This document shows positions 12,775 to 30,357 of a DNA stretch of 64,000 bases, one piece after another (position 1 is the stretch's first letter; each line of letters starts with the position of its first letter). The stretch comes from Gimesia chilikensis (GTDB lineage Bacteria; Planctomycetota; Planctomycetia; Planctomycetales; Planctomycetaceae): positions 868,001-932,000 of the forward strand of contig NZ_CP036266.1 in NCBI RefSeq assembly GCF_007744075.1, read 5' to 3'. A model generated the notes under the pieces. The model was not told where the DNA came from. It saw only the letters and a program-made list of their open reading frames with translations, and searched no databases. Position numbers and translations under genes: made by a program.

Positions 12775-13003
12775 GGGTAGCCCCGAATGCAATTCGGGGT
12801 GAGCACAGCGAACAGGAAACCGTCAGAGCAAACTCCCAAACGTCCTGAAAAGTCCCACCCCCCCCCTCAGTGCTCACAGAACCATGTAGGGGCGGCCCCA
12901 TGTGTCCGCCCGCCAGGGAAAACACTCCCACCACAAAACCAGCCATTCTACCCGATCGCCTCTGCCCCACAGAGATGAAAACTGGTAAGCTGATCAATGA
13001 GCA
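12775..13003 (+). repeat. Long composite repeat unit, copy A
   Basis: About 229 bases in three modules. First is the GGGTAGCCCCGAAT palindrome, then the CATGTAGGGGCGG hairpin, then a tail running from CCAGCCATTC to GGTAAGCTGATCAATGA. It is nearly identical to the unit at 13528-13753, and the two are direct repeats flanking the gene at 13079-13555. It starts 18 bases after the stop of the upstream gene. Confidence 0.9.
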
Positions 13004-13078
13004 GGATACTTTAATGATGATCCCAAACGTGTTGATTCGATTGACTGAATATTAAAAACAACTGAGTGAGGTAGCACC

Positions 13079-13555
13079 GTGATTTACCTATGGGCACTGG
13101 GAGTCATATTTCTCTTTGTAATCCTGGTTCTGGTTTTTGGCATATTGGTAGAAACAGCATGGTCTCTGCTTGTCCGGTTATTTCGGGGCAAGGATCAAAA
13201 ACAGAGACCATTATTCAACCTTTCAATCGTTGAGTTTACTGCGATCTTCTTAATCCTGGGTTTCTTCTTCACGATCCTGTTCGCGGCAGTGAACCAGGCG
13301 AGATATACCGCCAATGAAGAAATACTCCTGCCAGAATTCACTCCCCTTAACCCTGCAAAAGGATGGACACAGGGGATGGCCCTTGGTTTCCCCGCGCTCG
13401 TCAGCATCATTGCTGCTCTAACCTGTATCAGTTTATTGTCACTAATCCGTTACCTGTTGCCTGAAAAGCTGAAGCCATACATTACCTGGAAAAAGTGGAA
13501 GGATAACTCAGTGAAGGAAAAAGTACCGGGTAGCCCCGAATGCAATTCGGGGTGA
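13079..13555 (+). CDS. Small membrane protein whose 3' end lies in a repeat
   Basis: 158 residues. It has one hydrophobic segment at 2-26, a second at 52-72 and a third near 102-125. Between the last two is a loop with ILLPEFTPLNPAKGW. This loop and the flanking membrane segments match the product of 33717-34007 (MILPEFPPFNPSNGW), so the two belong to one family, which I do not recognise. The start is a GTG at 13079 behind a GAGGTAG-like site. The last eight residues (GSPECNSG) and the stop codon are encoded by the repeat unit that begins at 13528, so the repeat appears to have replaced the native C-terminal codons. Confidence 0.65.
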   Translation: MIYLWALGVIFLFVILVLVFGILVETAWSLLVRLFRGKDQKQRPLFNLSIVEFTAIFLILGFFFTILFAAVNQARYTANEEILLPEFTPLNPAKGWTQGMALGFPALVSIIAALTCISLLSLIRYLLPEKLKPYITWKKWKDNSVKEKVPGSPECNSG

Positions 13556-13753
13556 GCGCAGCGAACAGGAAACCGACAGAGCAAACTCCCAAACGCCCTG
13601 AAAAGCCCCATCCCCACAGTGCTCACAGAACCATGTAGCGCGGACCCATGTGTCCGCCCGCCAGGGAAAACACCCCCGATCACAAAACCAGCCATTCTAC
13701 CCGATCGCCTCTGCCCCACAGAGATGAAAACTGGTAAGCTGATCAATGAACAG
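13528..13753 (+). repeat. Long composite repeat unit, copy B
   Basis: Same three modules and order as the unit at 12775-13003, with scattered substitutions and a few length changes. It overlaps the last codons and stop of the upstream membrane-protein gene. Its tail ends about 110 bases before the probable start of the next gene. Confidence 0.9.
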
Positions 13754-13862
13754 GCACTTAAATTCAAAGAACCATATGTCGAACCAGGAGAATCACTTCC
13801 GTGATCAAAAGCGGATGCCTGGCAGGTTATCGCTCCCACAGTTGAAAGCAGGAAATACAGCG

Positions 13863-14399
13863 ATGTATGAGGAAATTAAGCTCAAAATCGAAATGCTCGG
13901 GGGAGATCAGCTTCGAGATTATTTCCCCAATGATTCCTTTTTTGCCAGGTATGACTTTCGTTTCGGAAATTTTCAGTCTGGTCAAAAGCAGCTCCGGTCG
14001 GGGCGAGAGATTTCCATGATGGAGAAAAAAGAAATCCTCGCATCGACGCAACTTTCGGTATTGCGGATCTGTTTTGTGAACCAAAGTGACCGGGCACAAA
14101 AGTTAAACTTTCCATATGGTCCGTTTCGAGTTGACAGGATCGATCCAATCATTTCCGATCTCAACGGGAAACGGATCGAGAGCTGGCAATTCTTTTGGGG
14201 AAAATATAAACGTGCCGATCCGGTGATTAATGAATTACAATCAGACGAACAATTGTGTTTCGATCTGGTGGCATTTATCGATGGGAACAAATTGGTGTTT
14301 CCCTGGTATGAATATGAATTACAGCACGGAACGGAATACCTGATTCAGGTAGGGGACCAGGATATGCGTTCGAATCAGATCGGATGGTGGTTCGCATAA
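13863..14399 (+). CDS. Hypothetical protein, 178 residues
   Basis: A soluble, mixed alpha/beta-looking protein without signal peptide or membrane segment and with many aromatic residues toward the C terminus (FPWYEYEL, IGWWFA). The ATG at 13863 is preferred because AGGAA lies eight bases upstream. The frame stays open further back toward the repeat, and an ATG at 13815 is the alternative. No family was recognised. It is the last of the three small genes in the repeat-rich stretch. Confidence 0.55.
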   Translation: MYEEIKLKIEMLGGDQLRDYFPNDSFFARYDFRFGNFQSGQKQLRSGREISMMEKKEILASTQLSVLRICFVNQSDRAQKLNFPYGPFRVDRIDPIISDLNGKRIESWQFFWGKYKRADPVINELQSDEQLCFDLVAFIDGNKLVFPWYEYELQHGTEYLIQVGDQDMRSNQIGWWFA

Positions 14400-14444
14400 C
14401 AGAAACAGCAATCCGATCAGATCCAGCTCTCTCACATCAATCAA

Positions 14445-14510
14445 GGGTAGCCCCGAATGCAATTCGGGGTGAGCGCAGCGAACAGGAAACTGACAGGGCA
14501 CTCATCCGAA
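14445..14510 (+). repeat. GGGTAGCCCCGAAT palindromic repeat, copy 4
   Basis: Palindrome plus GAGCGCAGCGAACAGGAAAC tail, without the later modules. It starts 45 bases after the stop of the gene at 13863-14399 and lies in the leader of the LVIVD gene. Confidence 0.85.
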
Positions 14511-14628
14511 CGCTCCCTTGAAAGTCCCCACCTCCAGCCAAATTGACAAACCCTGCACAGCGAAACATAATCGAAAGTTGATTCCTGTGACCAGTCACTT
14601 TGAAAACCCTCCCGCAGAGCACACACTC

Positions 14629-16644
14629 ATGCCCACACGCCTCGCACTCCTCATCTGCCTCCTGGTCATCACCGCCCCCAACTCCCTCCCCGCTGCACCA
14701 ACAGAAACCTACGGCCCCGCATTAACTCCCCGGAAGGTCAACGGCATCGACGCCTGCCAGGCCGTCGCCGTGGTCGGCAACCGGCTCTATGCCACCGGTC
14801 GCGGCAAGTTCCACGTGCTCGACATCACCCAACCCGAAAAACCGGTCCCGCTCGGCGAACTCTCCGGCCTGGGCAACACCCGCCAGCTCTTTATCAAAGA
14901 CAACATCGCCTATATCACCGCCCGCCAGGATGGACTCTGGCTCGTCGATATCTCCGCTGCGAACAAACCACAACTGCTGAGCCACTACGACACCGTCGAA
15001 ATGGCCACCGGCATCAGTGTCTCCGGCTCCCTGGCCTTCGTCGCCACGCGACAGTACGGCGTCGAGATCATCGACGTCTCCAACCCCCGCGCCCCGCAAC
15101 ATGTCAGCATGCTGAAAACGGGCGAAGCCCAGTCCTGCTGGTCCCGCGACGGCATCCTCTATATCGGCGACTGGGCGCCCCGGAAACTCGTCATCGCCGA
15201 CGTCCGCAACCCGCGCCAGCCCACGATCATCAGCGAAGCCCCCCTCGACGGTTTTGGTGACGGCGGCTGCCTCCGCGGCAACTATTGCTTCGCCGCCACC
15301 GGACACCATTCACGGGGGAGCCGCGATGACGGCAAAGGGCACGGACTCGAAATCTTCAATGTCACCGATCCCGAAAAGCCGACGTTCGTCTCCCGCGTCA
15401 AGTTCCCGGCCTCCTATCACATCTCGAACGACATGTGGACCGCCCGCGTCGCCGGCGATCACTGTGTCGTCGCCGACACCTGGAACGGACTCTTCGTCGT
15501 CAACATTCACGATATGAAGCAACCGCGAATCGTCGCCCACGCTGTCCTGCCACCCAAATCAAAGAGTGACCACACCCCCGACCCCGTCGGCGGCATCGCC
15601 CTCGGCAAGGGAGTGATCTACGCCGCCGGCATCTTCACCGGACTCTACGTCGTCCCCGCGCCCGGCCTCGCCACTCCGGACGTTCCCGAACAGGACCGGG
15701 CACCCGAACTGAAACCCGCTCAAGGCAAAACCGGCGATCCCCGTTTCCTCAGCTACCAGCCCGGCGGTCAGGTCCGCTCTGCCACCGTCGTGGGCGACAT
15801 CGCCTGGGCCGCCTGCGGCAGTGCCGGAATTCATGCGGTGCAGCTCGGCAAAACCCTGGAGCCGGTCAGCGTGACCAAAGGGAAAGGCGAGGTCATGCAC
15901 TTGGCCGTCTCCGGTTCGCGACTCTACGCCGCCGAGAACGACGCCGGTCTCGCCATCTACGACATCGGCCCCGAATGGAAACTGACCGAAATCGGTCGCC
16001 TCCAGTTGAAGAACCGCAATGTGAAACAGGTCGCCTGTCCCGCCCCCGGTCGGTTCGCCTTATACCACTGGGGCAGCTCCGCCGTGGAGATCGCCGACGT
16101 CCAGGATCCCGCGCACCCTAAAGTGGTCTTGAAAGATTCCCAGGTCGGCCTGTTCTACGGCGATCAGCTGGTCCCCGAACTGCTGGGAGGCCGATACCTG
16201 GTCGCCTACTGGCACCGCAGCGGACCGGCCTGGTACGACGTCACCGGCGAGAAACCCGTTTACCAGGGCAACACACCCGACGAGCGGCGCTACAGCTTTA
16301 CCGACGGCGTCTGTCTACTGGATGACAAACTGCTGCTCATCAAACACGGCAAGCTGCAACTGTTAAACCCCGGCGACCAGCGCGAAGTCAGCCAACTCCC
16401 CGCCATCACAGTCCCCGGCCATCGTCTCCGCGGCCGCCCGACCACCGACGGCAAACAACTGGCCCTCTCCCGCCGCCCCGATCAACGTGTAGAACTCTAT
16501 GACATCACCGACATCCAGCACCCCAAACCGATCCGCGAATATGATCTTAAGGGACACCCCGGCGCCTGCCGCTTCTGGAACAGCCAACTCCTGATCCCCG
16601 CCGGGTATCAGGGTTTGTTGCTGGAACGGAAGACGGAGCACTGA
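14629..16644 (+). CDS. Secreted LVIVD-repeat beta-propeller protein
   Basis: 671 residues. The N-terminal signal peptide MPTRLALLICLLVITAPNSL is followed by about a dozen degenerate repeats of the LVIVD type, for example HVLDITQPEKP, WLVDISAANKP, EIIDVSNPRAP, EIFNVTDPEKP and ELYDITDIQHP. Such repeats fold into beta-propeller blades in surface or periplasmic proteins of marine bacteria. No catalytic motif was seen, so a binding or scaffold role is likely. The ATG at 14629 was chosen because it begins the signal peptide. Confidence 0.8.
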   Translation: MPTRLALLICLLVITAPNSLPAAPTETYGPALTPRKVNGIDACQAVAVVGNRLYATGRGKFHVLDITQPEKPVPLGELSGLGNTRQLFIKDNIAYITARQDGLWLVDISAANKPQLLSHYDTVEMATGISVSGSLAFVATRQYGVEIIDVSNPRAPQHVSMLKTGEAQSCWSRDGILYIGDWAPRKLVIADVRNPRQPTIISEAPLDGFGDGGCLRGNYCFAATGHHSRGSRDDGKGHGLEIFNVTDPEKPTFVSRVKFPASYHISNDMWTARVAGDHCVVADTWNGLFVVNIHDMKQPRIVAHAVLPPKSKSDHTPDPVGGIALGKGVIYAAGIFTGLYVVPAPGLATPDVPEQDRAPELKPAQGKTGDPRFLSYQPGGQVRSATVVGDIAWAACGSAGIHAVQLGKTLEPVSVTKGKGEVMHLAVSGSRLYAAENDAGLAIYDIGPEWKLTEIGRLQLKNRNVKQVACPAPGRFALYHWGSSAVEIADVQDPAHPKVVLKDSQVGLFYGDQLVPELLGGRYLVAYWHRSGPAWYDVTGEKPVYQGNTPDERRYSFTDGVCLLDDKLLLIKHGKLQLLNPGDQREVSQLPAITVPGHRLRGRPTTDGKQLALSRRPDQRVELYDITDIQHPKPIREYDLKGHPGACRFWNSQLLIPAGYQGLLLERKTEH

Positions 16645-16825
16645 GTATGACAAGATGAACCACAGCACGTAGGCGTGCAACTGCTCTGACACAAGGATAG
16701 GAAAACTGGTAACATGATGGATCGATTATTGCCAGCGAAATAGATTGATATATTAGCCCCTGATCATTTTCCTTCTGAGACTTTGAATTATTTTTAAATC
16801 AGATTTATCTAGCAGGTAAACAATT

Positions 16826-17671
16826 ATGTCTAACCCAAGAGAGGAGATCGAAAGATTTAATGAGGAACGTCGTGATTATTCAAATCGGTGGGGGGCAGAA
16901 AATGCACCAAATTTGGTGAATCAAGATAGTTATTCTTGGATGGCTAGCTTTATCGAAAGTCAGAAAAATGTGCTCGATATTGGATGTGGTGATGGGAGTG
17001 GAATTATTGAACTTGCTGAACGTGGTCATTCGGTAATTTCGATCGAAGAAAATCCATATTGTATCGAACAGGCAAGGCAGAACTGTATCAAAAGTAACAT
17101 AAAGGTAAATACCGTCTTACGTGGGGAAGTATCGTTGAAAGAAGGTATAACGAAGGTTTCTTATTCACCTGTAGGTTCTATAGCACAACCATTACCTGGT
17201 GAGGTACTTATTATAGAAGGAGATATTCTCAATGACGATGTTCTACTTCACTGGCTAATGACAGCTAATCTATTTAATGCAGTTACATGTTGGTGCATAG
17301 GAACATATGTAAAGAGATTGCATTCAACAAACGGGGCAAGAAATTACCGTCTATATATGGAAAATGCGGCGTATAATTTAGCCGATAAAGTGCTTCTCCC
17401 AGGGGGAGTTCTTCACTTTGTCCATCGAGTATTTTCACGTGGAGAGGAATTTAGTGTTGATGATAGAAATGATGAACTTAGGGCGAATAAAGAGATGGCA
17501 GAAGTCACATCGCTGATTGTAGATGAAGACTCGTTGATTTACCGTGATTTTTCACTTCCAAGAAATGAAAATGGTATTCCTCTTAGCCAAAGTATGGGTA
17601 CTAATTCTGGAGCTAGTCAAAGTAGTGGCTCCAAAAGTCAATTAGAGTCAATACAAGCCAGGAAACCTTAA
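16826..17671 (+). CDS. Class I SAM-dependent methyltransferase, AT-rich
   Basis: 281 residues. Motif I is VLDIGCGDGSG at about residues 49-59, followed by an acidic motif II (ISIEENP). The central region with ALLxPGGVLHFVHRVFSR-like spacing is typical of small-molecule or protein methyltransferases, and no DNA-methylase NPPY/DPPY motif is visible. The last 40 residues are low-complexity (Ser, Gln). Base composition and codon use are much more AT-rich than the flanks, as in the two genes that converge on it with a 37-base gap. Membership in the neighbouring defence-like module is possible but unproven. Confidence 0.75.
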   Translation: MSNPREEIERFNEERRDYSNRWGAENAPNLVNQDSYSWMASFIESQKNVLDIGCGDGSGIIELAERGHSVISIEENPYCIEQARQNCIKSNIKVNTVLRGEVSLKEGITKVSYSPVGSIAQPLPGEVLIIEGDILNDDVLLHWLMTANLFNAVTCWCIGTYVKRLHSTNGARNYRLYMENAAYNLADKVLLPGGVLHFVHRVFSRGEEFSVDDRNDELRANKEMAEVTSLIVDEDSLIYRDFSLPRNENGIPLSQSMGTNSGASQSSGSKSQLESIQARKP

Positions 17672-17708
17672 TCAAAAGCGGACCTCTTTACTTCGAAAAC
17701 TAAACCTT

Positions 17709-19406
17709 TCAATTTGTGAAACTGGCATCAATAAATGGTCGGATACGCTTGGCAATTTGATCATAAGAATCCTTTTGAAGTAATTGCCGATGGTCTGAGA
17801 GAGTGATTATGCCTCCCCCAAGGTCTATGTCAGAGTCATCAACTAATCCAATAATCAGTTGACTGGATGGAGGTCGGTGATCGCGAATGAATTCCAGCAT
17901 TATCTTCCAATTATCAGGGTCTTGATCTTGTTGTTTGGGGGAATCAAGAATAATTGGACAAAAGGCCGCAGAGGAATATTTTTCAATGGTCTTAAGGATA
18001 GCAAAATAATAAGCCAATAATGCACGTGGGAGATCACTGCCAGTTTCTTTGATCTTTGAATCGATTTTTTTGAAATCTTTTTCCTTTAGAGCTGTAACAT
18101 TTAAAAGTTGAAGAAAATGCTTCATGCGATCACAATAAAACTCTCTGATTTCCTTCATTCTTTTACGGTTTGTAAATTTTTTCATTTCCAATTCAGCATC
18201 TTCTATTTTTTCATCTGCCTCACCAATTTTTAGGTTCAACTCGTCTTTTTCTTCTCTTAAAACCTTTCTGACTTCTTTCTTACCCTCACTCTGAAGAATA
18301 TCCTTCAATCGTACTTCACCTTGTTTGATCTCAAGTATTTCAGAGATATTCATGATTTTATCGGAGACTTTGTCTTTAGATAATATGGTGTTATCTAGTT
18401 TTGAGTCCCACTTAGTAAGTTCGTCTCTCAAATCTATCAAAAGGGATCTAAGACCATCCTCGTCAGCAGCAATCCCAAAGCGTTCTCCGAACGAGTTGTG
18501 GTACTCAGCACCACAAAGTGGGCATTCTACTTCATCATCAAAATTTTCAGCTAAAAATTTAAAATCTAAATTTAATTCACCCGCAGCTGCTTCAGTAACC
18601 TCAATTTGACGTCGAATTAAAGCTCGTTGACTTTCAATTTGCCGAAGCTCGTCACGAATATTCTCCTCTTTTTGTTTTAGACGATTACATTCGCTTAATA
18701 ATAATTTGATTTCCTTTTGGTAGTTTTCAATGTCGAAATCAAATTGAGCCTCTTTCATCAAAATTTCTAATTTATCCAATACCCGAGTGAGGACTGCACG
18801 CTCATCTCTCAATCCCTTTCGAGTGTCTTCATATTGTTGCTTTTCAGCCTTGGCAAGATACCATTCATTCGGTTTTAACCCTGAGTGATAAGCTGCAATC
18901 TCAGCTCTGCTTTTTTTGAATTGTCTAAGAGATTCAAAGGATGACCAGTTTTCAATCCATCCTCGATCTTGATCAATGTAGTAGGGAAGGAAAAGAAATG
19001 CCGGAGTAGCCTGTTGGGTTTCATTGTTGCTTGAATTTATCAACTGAAGATGAAAATCAAATAAATCGGCTAATGCAGGTCCAAGCTCTCGAGTAACATT
19101 AGCAAATGAATGGATATGATTGTCTTCAGAATCAAATAAACTATATTGATCTCCTGCTTTTAGAATACTGTATCTTGAGTCATCCACGCTGAAAAACAGG
19201 AGCAAGGTTACATCTAGTTCTTTCCAACTAGGGTGGACATTGTAAGGAGTAGCTCCAAAAGCCATGTATAGAGATTTGAGGAGGCACGATTTGCCATAAT
19301 CATTCTCCGCTTTTATCACGGTCACGTCTTCGAAAAACTTGACGCTCCTCGCGCTCCTCTCCGTCTCGGACAGAAGTAAGAGTTCGTGAAATAGTAACTT
19401 TTTCAT
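17709..19406 (-). CDS. DUF3732-like SMC/Rad50-type ATPase
   Basis: 565 residues. The N-terminal ATPase lobe has a Walker A, AENDYGKS, at residues 33-40. Two coiled-coil stretches (about 185-270 and 330-450) flank a CPLC zinc hook at residues 295-298. The C-terminal lobe has a Walker B-like IILDSP at 485-490. The layout is that of a short Rad50/SMC protein; FLFLPYYIDQDRGW and the LDSPKQQ segment resemble DUF3732 proteins. Its ATG overlaps the stop of the upstream nuclease gene by four bases, so the pair is one operon. By analogy with LmuB of Lamassu it would sense or bind DNA ends and control the nuclease. The gene is AT-rich and probably acquired. Confidence 0.85.
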   Translation of the reverse strand: MKKLLFHELLLLSETERSARSVKFFEDVTVIKAENDYGKSCLLKSLYMAFGATPYNVHPSWKELDVTLLLFFSVDDSRYSILKAGDQYSLFDSEDNHIHSFANVTRELGPALADLFDFHLQLINSSNNETQQATPAFLFLPYYIDQDRGWIENWSSFESLRQFKKSRAEIAAYHSGLKPNEWYLAKAEKQQYEDTRKGLRDERAVLTRVLDKLEILMKEAQFDFDIENYQKEIKLLLSECNRLKQKEENIRDELRQIESQRALIRRQIEVTEAAAGELNLDFKFLAENFDDEVECPLCGAEYHNSFGERFGIAADEDGLRSLLIDLRDELTKWDSKLDNTILSKDKVSDKIMNISEILEIKQGEVRLKDILQSEGKKEVRKVLREEKDELNLKIGEADEKIEDAELEMKKFTNRKRMKEIREFYCDRMKHFLQLLNVTALKEKDFKKIDSKIKETGSDLPRALLAYYFAILKTIEKYSSAAFCPIILDSPKQQDQDPDNWKIMLEFIRDHRPPSSQLIIGLVDDSDIDLGGGIITLSDHRQLLQKDSYDQIAKRIRPFIDASFTN

Positions 19407-20578
19407 GAACTTTTTTCCTCATGTTCCGAATCAGTCTTCGAAGGTTTCTGCTCATAAATTAGCACCAAAAACATAGCGTTAAGGAAATCTTGAGAGTAAT
19501 TAGTACGAATGAAATCAAATTCTTTTTCATCTAGAGTGGCAAGATATAAGATTGCGGAATCTAGAGGGGTATCACCATCGAATATCTGGTTGTCCATTTG
19601 CTGTATTAGTTGCACTGCTTTTTGGGAAGCATCTACGATTAGAAGGTTTGTCTGATCAAGACGTTCCCGAAAGAATTCTCTTACAGACTGCATCAAAGAA
19701 TTTCTTTCAAAGAAATTCATCTTTTCTGCTTCAAGCTGACTTCGTATTGTGTCATATAAGTCATTTTGTTTAATTATAGATTGTGCGCTATTAATCATTC
19801 CCTTTAAATCTGCCCTAGAAATTCCTCTGTGCCGAATCATATCTTGAGGTGAAGCAGCAATAGACTCACGATTGTTTCTTATTTGAACTTCAGATCTTAA
19901 TGCTTGATGGAAAGGCCGTGGCAGAATTGAACCATCTGTCTCTTTTTCAAGAAATTCAGATATAATTCCTTCAGTGTGTCTTTGGTGATCAGGCACACTA
20001 AGAGGAGTTCTTTCTAATTGAAATAGTTCGAGCCCTTCGGGTTCCGATTTCAATTGGTGTTCATCCATAAGAATATCTTTTATTTTTAATAATGAACTAT
20101 CATCCAATTCTTTAAGAGAAATCAATTCCAAATCAGTACTCGTTATTTCAGATTTCAGCTCTATTTTGAAAGCAGCATCAGATACAAACACCATTTTTTT
20201 TGCGTATGACTCAAACCTTAAATATTGTGCGTAAAGTTTTCCTAAAATAGATGATAACTTTTGCTCCTTCGCATCTGTTTTGCGACTAAGCAAGTTGGTC
20301 AAACTCCATGTTCCTGAGCTCTTTTTTCCTGGGGTCTTTGTTTTTACTTGGTAGAAGTATGCTTCTGTTGGATTAGTGGAGTGATTCAATAAAACCACAT
20401 CATCATGCACTTCAAATAATATGCAGTAATCATCTTTCGATTCCTGATGAACCCGCAACATCAAGCATATTCCCCATGAGTGCTGGAATGCAAAACGGTT
20501 GCTTGCTCGAGCCCCGTCTATCTCGCGTGGTGGAGTTGATACTAGTAGATCAAAGAGTGGCGACTGGTGTGTGTTCAT
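19403..20578 (-). CDS. DUF4297/Cap4-like nuclease-domain protein
   Basis: 391 residues. The N-terminal domain resembles the Cap4/DUF4297 dsDNA endonuclease of the PD-(D/E)xK type. It has the GARASNRFAFQHSW entry motif at residues 22-35, E56 and D59/D60 in LFEVHDDVVLL, and QVK at 77-79 as the catalytic strand. The C-terminal 200 residues are helical and unrecognised, and may be a fused middle or sensor domain, because no separate third gene is present. It is the first gene of an operon with the SMC-like ATPase, overlapping it by four bases. The combination suggests an abortive anti-phage system in which DNA sensing by the ATPase releases nuclease activity; this is inferred. Confidence 0.8.
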   Translation of the reverse strand: MNTHQSPLFDLLVSTPPREIDGARASNRFAFQHSWGICLMLRVHQESKDDYCILFEVHDDVVLLNHSTNPTEAYFYQVKTKTPGKKSSGTWSLTNLLSRKTDAKEQKLSSILGKLYAQYLRFESYAKKMVFVSDAAFKIELKSEITSTDLELISLKELDDSSLLKIKDILMDEHQLKSEPEGLELFQLERTPLSVPDHQRHTEGIISEFLEKETDGSILPRPFHQALRSEVQIRNNRESIAASPQDMIRHRGISRADLKGMINSAQSIIKQNDLYDTIRSQLEAEKMNFFERNSLMQSVREFFRERLDQTNLLIVDASQKAVQLIQQMDNQIFDGDTPLDSAILYLATLDEKEFDFIRTNYSQDFLNAMFLVLIYEQKPSKTDSEHEEKSS

Positions 20579-20733
20579 TTAGTCATTATTATCGTCGGCC
20601 GTACATTTAGTCAAATGGCAGATTGCTCTGAAAAGATTTATTCTCCGCATGTACATAAAAGTTGTCAGTTACATTATTTATTGATCCTCAGATCTTTATC
20701 CACTCCACAAACCCGATTCAAATATCTTACCAG

Positions 20734-21099
20734 CCACCCTGGTTCATTAATTCCCCCACGATTTCCCACCACACAGTTGCCCCCAACACCAAATTCGATT
20801 CTCATAGAATCACAGGCACAGTAATTCCCCCCAGTCAGAAACCACGTGGCGACTTCCTGCTCCGTGCGCCTCTGTCTGCCCCCCTGTTAATCGATGCGCC
20901 TAGAGGAACCTCCTGATACAGCTGTTACGGTCCACGTTGATCCTGTCTGGCCCTGGTCGCCTGCAGTTCAAACCTCTTCGCACAGCAAACCGCAAAGTTC
21001 GCCCCGGTGAAACCCGCCGGCGATCCGGCCACCTGCGGTGCGAACATTCAGCGGACCATGACACTGCTGGCCACCAGCACCGCGTGATGTGTCAGGCTC
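20734..21099 (+). pseudogene. Truncated, decayed copy of SGNH hydrolase leader and 5' end (copy 1)
   Basis: About 365 bases matching the upstream region and first 56 codons of the SGNH hydrolase gene at 28912. The start codon is changed to ATA (20916), and a two-base deletion in the signal-peptide region shifts the frame, so nothing is translated as in the parent. The 3' junction is the same as in the copy at 22488-22836: after CTGGCCACCAGCAC both continue with CG and a TGA, ending in CAGGCTC. The copy abuts the right edge of the AT-rich island. Beyond it, around 21112-21160, a diverged piece of the CCAGCCATT...CTCTGCC repeat tail is visible. Confidence 0.8.
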
Positions 21100-21195
21100 T
21101 ACCCGCCGGTAAAAAAAGAGCACCAGCCATTTCCCAGAACGGCTCTGCCACGCGGAATTGACAACGGGTTCCGGACTATGATTCCTCTCGTCCGT

Positions 21196-21636
21196 CTAAC
21201 TGTTTACCGACCCGGGCAGCGATTGATCTGCGAGCATTTTCTCAATCTGAGTAATCGCCTTAGAGCGGTTTGAGCCTTTGATCAGCCATTGAGGGAGTGC
21301 ATACAGCGCCGCCTGGTTTCGGTCTGTGTTGCCTGTCAGGACATCCTGGATCCGTCGCAGCCGGCTTTCATTCTCGGCCCACAGCACGTGCTCACCAATG
21401 CGGATTCGGTACCAGAACCGATGCTCAAGTGATGCGCCCGATTTGAGTTCACCCACAACGCCACATTGGGAGCACAGGATGCGTTTGACACAATACCCGA
21501 TGTACGGGTTAAGGTAGGTGCCACGCACACCGCGCGAGTACGTTTTCCCGACGCAACGACCTCCGCATGACGGGCAGACAAGGTCGTAGTCAGGACCGTC
21601 CTGACCATAAAATGGTGTTTCTGTGTCAAACCACAT
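21196..21636 (-). CDS. Zinc-ribbon-like hypothetical protein
   Basis: 146 residues. The N-terminal half has paired cysteines CPSCGGRC near residue 20 and CVKRILCSQCG near 48-58, which suggest a treble-clef or zinc-ribbon fold. The C-terminal half is helical and basic (SRLRRIQDVL, KAITQIEKML). No family was assigned. It could bind nucleic acid or protein. It lies between copy 1 of the SGNH fragment and a lipoprotein gene. Confidence 0.6.
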   Translation of the reverse strand: MWFDTETPFYGQDGPDYDLVCPSCGGRCVGKTYSRGVRGTYLNPYIGYCVKRILCSQCGVVGELKSGASLEHRFWYRIRIGEHVLWAENESRLRRIQDVLTGNTDRNQAALYALPQWLIKGSNRSKAITQIEKMLADQSLPGSVNS

Positions 21637-21734
21637 GGTGCCGGTTAACCTTCGAGAGATAGAATTACAAACAGACTCACTGTCGAAGCTTTCCTGGAAA
21701 CGATCGCAGTTATTACCTTCGGAAAATGAAGGAT

Positions 21735-22301
21735 TTAATTGATCGGTTCGTCAGTCTTTAACGACTTTAAGTACTTGAAAAACTGTTTATCACTAATACT
21801 GCGTGCGTTCTCATATTCTGCTTCTTCCCCTCTCAGTCCTACTGAGGAGCCTCCATAAAAAATGGCGCCTCTCAGACCGACAGCCAATTCTAACTCTGTG
21901 TCGTCTGGCTTAATGTCTTTAGTGACCTCGTTTGCGACATACCAGGATAATTGATTCAGAGCATCTCTGACTTCACCTTTATACCCCTTTAACTGAGGTA
22001 CATGGACCAGGAATAAAATAGAGTCATCGTTGATCTTGCAATAAGTCAGGAATTCTTCTTTTGTTAAAGATATGATACGATCCTCTTTCCCGCCCGTGAA
22101 AAACTCTTTTTGCAGTGATTTCATGCTGGTCGAAAATGTTTGAGCTAATTCTTTTTCCTCTTTAGTTGCTCCGTAGGCGATTCCACCTCTGGATGAAGCA
22201 ATTTTCTTATTGGCAGCATCAAAAGCAATTTCCTCTGGGGTTTTTGGTTTTTGTTCACATCCCACGAATAACAGGCAGAGTACGACGGGCAGGTATTTCA
22301 T
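21735..22301 (-). CDS. Hypothetical lipoprotein
   Basis: 188 residues. A short signal ends in the lipobox FVGC, with the cysteine at residue 15, so a lipid-anchored periplasmic or surface protein is predicted. The rest is charged and soluble, with a KPDDTELELAVGLRGAIF segment. No homologous family was recognised. It has the same strand as the zinc-ribbon-like gene downstream, about 100 bases apart. Confidence 0.65.
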   Translation of the reverse strand: MKYLPVVLCLLFVGCEQKPKTPEEIAFDAANKKIASSRGGIAYGATKEEKELAQTFSTSMKSLQKEFFTGGKEDRIISLTKEEFLTYCKINDDSILFLVHVPQLKGYKGEVRDALNQLSWYVANEVTKDIKPDDTELELAVGLRGAIFYGGSSVGLRGEEAEYENARSISDKQFFKYLKSLKTDEPIN

Positions 22302-22487
22302 GTTTCCCTTATTGTATATTTAGACTGACAGATGTTGTTCAAAAGTTCATTCTGTCTAATTTATCAGTGTTTCTATCTGTTTTCAATCGACGTTACGAGG
22401 ATAAAATTCGTGCCTGGTTCTTTACTCACTGATGCTCACTTCTTTCTCTCCTCCTGAAGCTCGATTTAATTATCCCACCAAAGCATT

Positions 22488-22836
22488 CTGGTTCCCACTG
22501 TTTTTCAACCCCACAGTTGCCCCCAACACCAAATTCGATTCTCATAGAACCACAGACACAGTAATTCCCCCAGCCAGAGACCACGTGGCGACTTCCTGCT
22601 CCGTGCGTCTCTGCACCCCTGTTAATCGACGCGCCTTGAGGAACAATCTGATGCAACTGTTACGGTCCACGTTGATTCTGTCTCTGGCCCTGGTCGCCTG
22701 CAGTTCTGACCTGTCTGCACAACAAGCCGCAAAAATTTCCCCGGTGAAACCCGCCGGCGATCCGGCCACCTTCGGGGCGAACATTCAGCGAACCATGACA
22801 CTGCTGGCCACCAGCACCGCATGATATGACAGGCTC
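22488..22836 (+). repeat. SGNH hydrolase leader and 5' end duplication (copy 2)
   Basis: About 350 bases closely matching the SGNH hydrolase leader and first 56 codons (parent at 28738-29078). Unlike copy 1, the reading frame is intact from ATG 22651 to a TGA at 22822-22824. The 3' junction is shared with copy 1, which indicates that one truncated element was copied rather than two independent truncations. Confidence 0.85.
22651..22824 (+). CDS. 57-residue exported mini-protein, truncated SGNH hydrolase copy
   Basis: The frame encodes MQLLRSTLILSLALVACSS, a signal sequence with a lipobox-like LVAC. About 38 residues ending TMTLLATSTA follow, then a stop. Residues 1-56 match the N terminus of the SGNH hydrolase at 28912, including the ribosome site (GAGGAAC) and leader. 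No catalytic block is present, so it cannot be an esterase. It may be expressed as a small exported peptide or be a pseudogene remnant. The intact frame with several synonymous-looking changes keeps both options open. Confidence 0.4.
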   Translation: MQLLRSTLILSLALVACSSDLSAQQAAKISPVKPAGDPATFGANIQRTMTLLATSTA

Positions 22837-22884
22837 CTTTTCGGAAACCAGCTTCGCGTGTCGTCAGCGAAAAAGGCAATCAGC

Positions 22885-23109
22885 ATGACCAACAAAAAGT
22901 TCCACCTGCAACAGTATCCAGGTGCCGCCTGTCTGAAATTGCCGGACTTTCCCGAACAGCGGGATCCCGGTGAGATCGCCATTGCAAATTCGATTGATAT
23001 TCACAGTCTGATCGCAGACGACGATGGTCCCCGTCTCTGTTAGGACTTTGATCAGGCAGGTCGACCCAGCGGAATCGAGATTGTCTATTCCGGCGATGAG
23101 TACGACTGA
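22885..23109 (+). pseudogene. DUF2283-like small protein gene with internal TAG
   Basis: The frame starts at ATG 22885 (MTNKKFHLQQYPGAACLKLP) and is stopped by TAG at 23041-23043. It continues in the same frame as DFDQAGRPSGIEIVYSGDEYD to TGA at 23107-23109. The second half resembles the DUF2283 signature D.D..G...GIEI, and the spacing fits a protein of about 75 residues. It is most simply a pseudogene by nonsense mutation. TAG is used as an ordinary stop by other genes here, so readthrough is not implied. A diverged repeat tail (CCATTTACCAG...CTGGTAAG) follows at about 23190-23233. Confidence 0.5.
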
Positions 23110-23271
23110 GATGGTTTGCAGTCATCTACCAGTCCGCCTCTGCCCATCAGCCGCCGGTAAATGGCAGCCACACCAGAAACTTCACCCATTTACCAGGACG
23201 GCACTGCCACGTAGCGAGAAAAGCTGGTAAGTGGAATCAGATTCTCAGGCTCTGTCTGAGCCAGATCCGTG

Positions 23272-28737: not shown

Positions 28738-29078
28738 CTGGTTCATTAATTCCCCCACGATTTCCCTCCCCACAGTTGCCACCAGTCTCAAATTCGATTC
28801 TCATAGAACCACAGACACAGTGATTTCCCCAGCCAGAGACCATGTGGCGACTTCCTGCTTCTTGCGTCTCTGTCTGCCCCTGTTAATCGACGCGCCTTGA
28901 GGAACATTCTGATGCAGCTGTTACGGTCCACGTTGATTCTGTCTCTGACCCTGGTCGCCTGCAGTTCAAACCTCTTCGCACAGAAAGCCCCGAACTTCGC
29001 TCCGGTGAAACCCGCCGGCGATCCGGCGACCTGCGGTGCGAACATTCAGCGGACCATGACGCTGCTGGCCACCAGCAC
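28738..29078 (+). repeat. SGNH hydrolase leader and 5' end, parental copy (copy 3)
   Basis: The region shared with the truncated copies at 20734-21099 and 22488-22836. It includes about 175 bases of leader and the first 56 codons of the SGNH gene. Similarity stops at CTGGCCACCAGCAC, after which this copy continues into the full gene. Confidence 0.85.
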
Positions 29079-30357
29079 GCCGGAAAAACGCAATCGGGTC
29101 CGCATCCTGTTCTACGGCCAGTCCGTTACCCGCAATCCGTGGTGGGAAGACGTGGCGAATGACCTCCGCCAACGGTTTCCGCACGCCGACCTCGAAATCG
29201 AAAATCGTGCCATCGGCGGCTATGGCGGACCGGTCCTGATCAACACCGCCGAATTTGATCTCTACCCCTTCTACCCGGATCTGGTAATCTTTCACGTCTG
29301 GTCCGGGGCGGAAACCGGCCACCAGGAAAATATCATCCGCCGCATCCGTGAGCGGACCACCGCCGAGGTCCTGCTCTGGACCAGTAACCTCCGCTGGCCG
29401 AGTACCGTCCCGCCGGACGGCGACCCGCAACACCCCGACGTGCTGGCCAAAGACGCGCAGGATCAGGCGATTTCCGATCTCTACTTTCGCCTGGGCCGCG
29501 AACTCAATTGTGAAGTGGCCGACGTCCGCACCGGTATGCAACGTTATCTGAAAGAAAATAACCTTGTCGTGAAAGACACCCTCCGCGACACGGTGCACCC
29601 AAACAAATTAGGGAACTTCCTCATCGCCGAACTGGTCAAACCGCATCTGCGCTATGATCCCAGCTTCCCCGATGACAAATGGAAAGACCTCGTTACCGAT
29701 GTCCCCGTGAATGACCCGCGGGTTCAGCACAAAGACGACGGCTCCCTGACGCTGAACTTCAAGGGCAACCGCATCGACGTGATCGCAGCTTCTGGAGACG
29801 CAGCCAAAGCCGACGTGCTCCTGGACGGGAAATCCCCCTCCCAATTCCCGGAGCTCTACTATCACACGCGTCCCAGCCCCACGCCCGTCGCAGGACGCCC
29901 GGCCTTCAATCGCATCGATCATCAGAGTCCGCTGCAGGTGGAAACCTGGACCGCCCGCATCCTCGAATGCGATCTGGAAAAGGATGTGCTGCGGTATGAA
30001 ATCAGCGGTTCCAAAACGGGCCCCGACGGCACCGGCGATCACAAACAGCGTTTCGTTTCCCACTCCGGTCGCGTGGTGATCGAACCCCGGATGTGGATGG
30101 TCAACTGGTCCCTGCGGTATCGCAAACAGAGTCTGCCGAAAGACTACAAAGTCACCTGGGAAACCAGACCGCTCTTCGTAGACGTCTGGCAATCCCCGGC
30201 GGTCACAGACTCATCCAAAGAATATCCCACGGTCCTCGCCCAAGGCATGAAAAACGGCGACCACAGCCTGACCCTCAACCCACAGACCCCAGGCAAACTC
30301 CCCGTCAAAGCCTTCCGGATCTACCGCCCGCCATTGAAAGTTTCCGCTGAAGAATAA
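28912..30357 (+). CDS. Exported SGNH/GDSL hydrolase-like protein
   Basis: 481 residues. The N-terminal signal has a lipobox-like LVAC at residues 14-17. The SGNH domain follows: block I reads FYGQSVTRN (GQS instead of GDS, serine retained), then the glycine-rich GGYGG, and block V DTVHPNKLG with the Asp and His of the catalytic triad. A C-terminal beta-rich domain of about 200 residues is unassigned. It probably deacylates carbohydrates or similar esters outside the cytoplasm. The ATG at 28912 has GAGGAAC upstream. Its 5' end is duplicated twice in the window. Confidence 0.8.
   Translation: MQLLRSTLILSLTLVACSSNLFAQKAPNFAPVKPAGDPATCGANIQRTMTLLATSTPEKRNRVRILFYGQSVTRNPWWEDVANDLRQRFPHADLEIENRAIGGYGGPVLINTAEFDLYPFYPDLVIFHVWSGAETGHQENIIRRIRERTTAEVLLWTSNLRWPSTVPPDGDPQHPDVLAKDAQDQAISDLYFRLGRELNCEVADVRTGMQRYLKENNLVVKDTLRDTVHPNKLGNFLIAELVKPHLRYDPSFPDDKWKDLVTDVPVNDPRVQHKDDGSLTLNFKGNRIDVIAASGDAAKADVLLDGKSPSQFPELYYHTRPSPTPVAGRPAFNRIDHQSPLQVETWTARILECDLEKDVLRYEISGSKTGPDGTGDHKQRFVSHSGRVVIEPRMWMVNWSLRYRKQSLPKDYKVTWETRPLFVDVWQSPAVTDSSKEYPTVLAQGMKNGDHSLTLNPQTPGKLPVKAFRIYRPPLKVSAEE

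Follow-up and report, generated by a model that had tools for sequence, protein, structure and literature searches.

Which system is formed by two overlapping genes, for a nuclease-like protein and an SMC-type ATPase, in the chromosome of Gimesia chilikensis, and does the methyltransferase gene that converges on them belong to it? The genes lie in a stretch of 64,000 nucleotides (NZ_CP036266.1, positions 868,001 to 932,000), which we call the window. A preliminary description of this DNA had proposed a Cap4-type PD-(D/E)xK-like nuclease paired with a Rad50/SMC-like ATPase, as in Lamassu, and our comparisons confirmed this assignment. The two genes, lmuA and lmuB, are very probably a system of defence against phages or plasmids, Lamassu type I (LmuAB), that reached the chromosome by horizontal transfer as part of the cargo of a variable slot. 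As judged by sequence comparison, the locus is a genuine and ordinary Lamassu type I in its family identity, its gene order, the lack of an intervening gene and its location, and it adds to a two-gene form that has already been described.

Identity of LmuA and LmuB

The coordinates and motifs originally given for both proteins were recovered in the sequence and in the alignments. LmuA (19403..20578, minus strand, 391 amino acids) matched the Cap4_nuclease family (8e-29), and LmuB (17709..19406, minus strand, 565 amino acids) matched the PADLOC LmuB profile PDLC00249 over residues 1-562 (3e-202, 671 bits). Because of these values, both matches are beyond chance. In addition, a profile of LmuB matched the LmuB chain of a solved Lamassu structure (9ux7_A) at 1e-31.

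LmuA has the N-terminal enzymatic domain of a Lamassu effector, here a Cap4 nuclease. In an alignment of 20 proteins, positions 56 and 59 were Asp or Glu throughout, and D60, Q77 and K79 (the latter two forming the Q-x-K motif) were invariant. The structural model of LmuA aligned with the solved Lamassu LmuA chains over residues 29-378 (9ux7_C), 21-382 (9nxx_B) and 21-385 (9hr5_A), with large rmsd. These alignments extend over the C-terminal helical half (about residues 214-391). An alternative start is present at residue 40 and the database copy (P0001) comprises 352 residues, but most homologues retain sequence before residue 40 and therefore the longer form is favoured.

LmuB carries Walker A at residues 33-40, a CPLCG hook at 295-299 and Walker B at 485-490. 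In all 29 aligned proteins N35, G38, K39 and S40 of Walker A, C295, P296, C298 and G299 of the hook (CPxCG) and D488 of Walker B were invariant. The residue after D488, which we take to be the position of the catalytic Glu, was Ser in 27 of them (S489 in our protein), Ala in one and Thr in one; it was acidic in none and thus never Glu. Ser also follows the Walker B Asp in the aligned 9ux7 LmuB. Consequently, LmuB shows both features expected of Lamassu, the zinc hook present in many members and a Walker B without catalytic Glu. In a review on Lamassu (PMC10586767), replacement of the catalytic Glu by Gln and weak hydrolysis are remarked. The non-acidic residue found here is in keeping with weak ATP hydrolysis.

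Gene arrangement and the two-gene form

The end of lmuA, with its stop codon, overlaps the start of lmuB by four bases (19403..19406, minus strand), as had been described, so that the two genes lie side by side as in other Lamassu loci. When LmuA was used as query in genome contigs no confirmed relative was obtained, and for this reason loci were collected with LmuB. To the locus set (n = 103) genomes contributed the best 80 of 193 confirmed LmuB relatives, and viral contigs contributed 23 loci. It can be seen that lmuA was located immediately upstream of lmuB in 79 of the 80 genome loci; in the exception (L048) the start of LmuB is missing at a contig end. Among these 79 pairs, 13 had the same four-base overlap and 77 had a gap of at most 60 bases. 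The outliers (L062, 209 bases; L081, 287 bases) reflect a late start or a split LmuB frame, since the tblastn match of LmuB begins 44-52 bases after LmuA. In the viral-contig loci the LmuA profile found its target in 19 of 23 cases and gave no match in four distant ones (L133-L136).

The preliminary description had regarded a separate middle protein as usual and the present layout as a compact variant. The absence of a gene between lmuA and lmuB was confirmed, but this is the ordinary type I arrangement. According to PMC8565338, LmuC is the exception: about 10.2% of the Lamassu systems (371) have it, and these are termed type II; a second source (PMC10586767) likewise mentions that some Lamassu systems are without LmuC. 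The solved structure 9ux7 carries the title LmuAB-DNA complex. The original Lamassu of 2018 reportedly had two genes. As a further type I Lamassu, the locus corrects the view of the two-gene layout as unusual. No LmuC-named match was returned by PADLOC scans of the methyltransferase and of small open reading frames at 21196 and 21735, the LmuC models of the library not having been looked up. Fusion of LmuC to the C-terminal half of LmuA, another earlier suggestion, was not borne out; it need not be assumed for a type I Lamassu, a form without LmuC, and in the structural alignments, albeit with large rmsd, this half is covered by LmuA of the solved complexes.

Composition and distribution

The GC content was 37.4% for LmuA, 37.9% for LmuB and 39.1% for the methyltransferase, compared with 53.4% for the whole window, and third-position GC amounted to 28-33% in these three genes versus 64-78% in four measured neighbouring genes. 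The block is therefore more AT-rich than its surroundings, and the methyltransferase shares this composition, both as previously noted. LmuB gave no match (E<=1e-3) in the genus outside our genome (16 genomes) or in 42 further relatives, a few of these genomes being incomplete, and it was also absent (E<=1e-20) from the other 391 genomes of a phylum sample that overlaps with this 58-genome set. Relatives with 55-57% identity (P0037, P0052, P0055) came from metagenome-assembled genomes of Pirellulaceae or Planctomycetaceae. Further relatives were present on plasmids, in phage records and on viral contigs, which points to a defence rather than a housekeeping context.

The convergent methyltransferase and alternative explanations

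The neighbouring gene (16826..17671, plus strand) encodes a class I SAM-dependent methyltransferase of 281 amino acids (PF13847, 3e-8), and its reading frame ends 37 bases from the lmuB stop. Structure was sought in this gap and the fold was no better than that of shuffled sequences (z 0.91). Against PADLOC the protein gave a weak match to MTase_II (5e-4), and its residues 38-204 gave a partial match to mad2 from the MADS system (3.6e-12). The predicted model of the protein resembles many small-molecule and RNA methyltransferases. The family is rare; its closest relative apart from the protein itself shares 56% identity, and two relatives (P0156, P0157) are annotated with PF02810 (SEC-C) and possess a cysteine-rich N-terminus. 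No confirmed relative was found in viral contigs. Three plasmid records contained relatives with 25-29% identity, and in both of the two regions examined an S8 peptidase is encoded nearby.

If the methyltransferase marked self DNA or otherwise controlled LmuA, the locus would be a three-gene system, as the preliminary description had considered. The low GC content common to all three genes and the short spacing fit this idea, as do the partial mad2 match and a distant relative (about 25% identity) on a Sinorhizobium plasmid, which adjoins a restriction endonuclease, the S8 peptidase and a TIR protein. However, a profile of nine sequences (E<=1e-3) detected a methyltransferase homologue at none of the 103 LmuB loci, a set with some short-flanked members and without the nearest LmuB relatives (55-74% identity). 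All Pfam matches at E<=1 were to generic class I families and none was to a DNA-methylase family, and relatives at E<=1e-15 occurred in only 2 of 392 phylum genomes, our own included. Moreover, the gene is convergent and hence not on one transcript with lmuAB. We consider a three-gene system very unlikely. Marginally less probable still is a lineage-specific accessory or antidote that was captured together with LmuAB and modulates it; if true, this would be a Lamassu plus methyltransferase variant not described in the portions of the literature surveyed. We judge the methyltransferase to be neighbouring cargo with little sign of being a Lamassu component.

The LmuB profile also matched the ATPase N-termini of Rad50 (1e-5), and one might therefore think of a housekeeping Rad50-like repair pair. 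However, the full-length Lamassu matches, the foreign composition of lmuAB, the lack of an LmuB match in the other 58 genomes (a few of them incomplete) and the plasmid, phage or viral location of relatives all argue against such a pair, and its probability is close to nil. Thus, type I Lamassu remains the preferred reading.

The variable chromosomal slot

The slot is bordered on the left by a propeller-like gene (14518..16644, plus strand), a label that we take from the look of its repeats and not from a family search, and on the right by a GDSL-like hydrolase gene (28897..30357, plus strand). The orthologue of the latter at L105 matched PF13472 at 4.7e-7 with 30.9 bits, which is below the cut-off of 32.9. 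The propeller-like protein had a match in 12 of 17 genus genomes; G003, G004 and G011, whose best match was a 40-41% paralogue, were set aside, leaving nine genomes including our own. In all nine, which have a close propeller orthologue (at least 87% identity), the GDSL-like gene was on the same side and the cargo between the walls differed.

For this survey part of the open reading frames in the cargo was scanned. Our genome carries Lamassu at this position, and G009 carries Shango (SngA 2e-66, SngB 1e-169, SngC 3e-244). G005 has a weak SIR2-like protein and a HEPN protein, G013 (L108:4409-9175) a RES-domain protein and a small, weakly matched methyltransferase adjoining a 2OG-Fe(II) oxygenase-family protein, G010 a Mutator-type transposase and G001 a putative MscS-like gene and others. 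G008, G014 and G016 contain mostly family-less proteins; G014 and G016 have a cargo protein in common, judging by the look of its start. PADLOC matches (E<=1e-3) were obtained for 7 of 23 cargo proteins from other genomes, including the three Shango proteins; the other 16 gave no match. Clear defence systems are therefore present in two of the nine slot genomes and the remainder is suggestive. A search of the slot for more defence genes could be worthwhile.

In G001, blastn matches at this junction stop at window position 16629 and resume at 23256, these ends being 11 bases apart in G001, between the propeller-like and the MscS-like genes. The stretch 16630..23255 is thus absent there, and insertion here or deletion there may explain this difference, both fitting the blastn pattern. 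Because close relatives of the MscS-like gene (81-85%) were confined to G001 and G011 among the 16 other genus genomes, the junction was seen in one genome. Inside the slot, the 5' end of the GDSL-like gene occurs in two additional, truncated copies (20762-21099 and 22502-22836); in the other eight slot genomes a match to this stretch lies where the GDSL-like gene begins, and perhaps the copies are scars of successive insertions. To the left of the slot (12775-14533) an 88-base repeat is present in three copies (identity to the first, 94% and 75%), together with other direct repeats spaced about 750 bases apart.

Proposed mechanism

Three sources (PMC10586767, PMC12904381, PMC12799240) and the titles of the solved structures of relatives served as basis for a mechanism. 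According to these, LmuB of Lamassu senses DNA ends or hairpins, the effector is activated by oligomerisation and LmuA cuts DNA. By analogy, LmuB, probably a dimer formed via the zinc hook, would bind invading DNA at its ends or at hairpin-like structures, with LmuA docked by its C-terminal half and held inactive. Sensing would lead to assembly of LmuA, which in Salmonella forms a tetramer on DNA, and the assembled nuclease would cut double-stranded DNA, so that the phage is stopped or the cell is killed. Since no acidic residue follows the Walker B Asp, slow or no ATP hydrolysis is suggested, and ATP binding might hence act as a one-way switch.

Comparison with known systems

CBASS Cap4, Hachiman HamA and HerA-DUF4297 share the nuclease domain fold but work with other partners. 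Here, the partner is the SMC-like LmuB, and not the HamB helicase that characterizes Hachiman. Lamassu type II, DdmABC and ABC-three-component systems have LmuA and LmuB in common with our locus; in contrast, theirs includes a separate LmuC between the two, a position for which the overlapping genes leave no room. With Lamassu type I the locus shares both protein families, the gene order, the lack of a middle gene, the Cap4-type effector and the Walker A, hook and Walker B motifs of LmuB, and no substantial difference was found.
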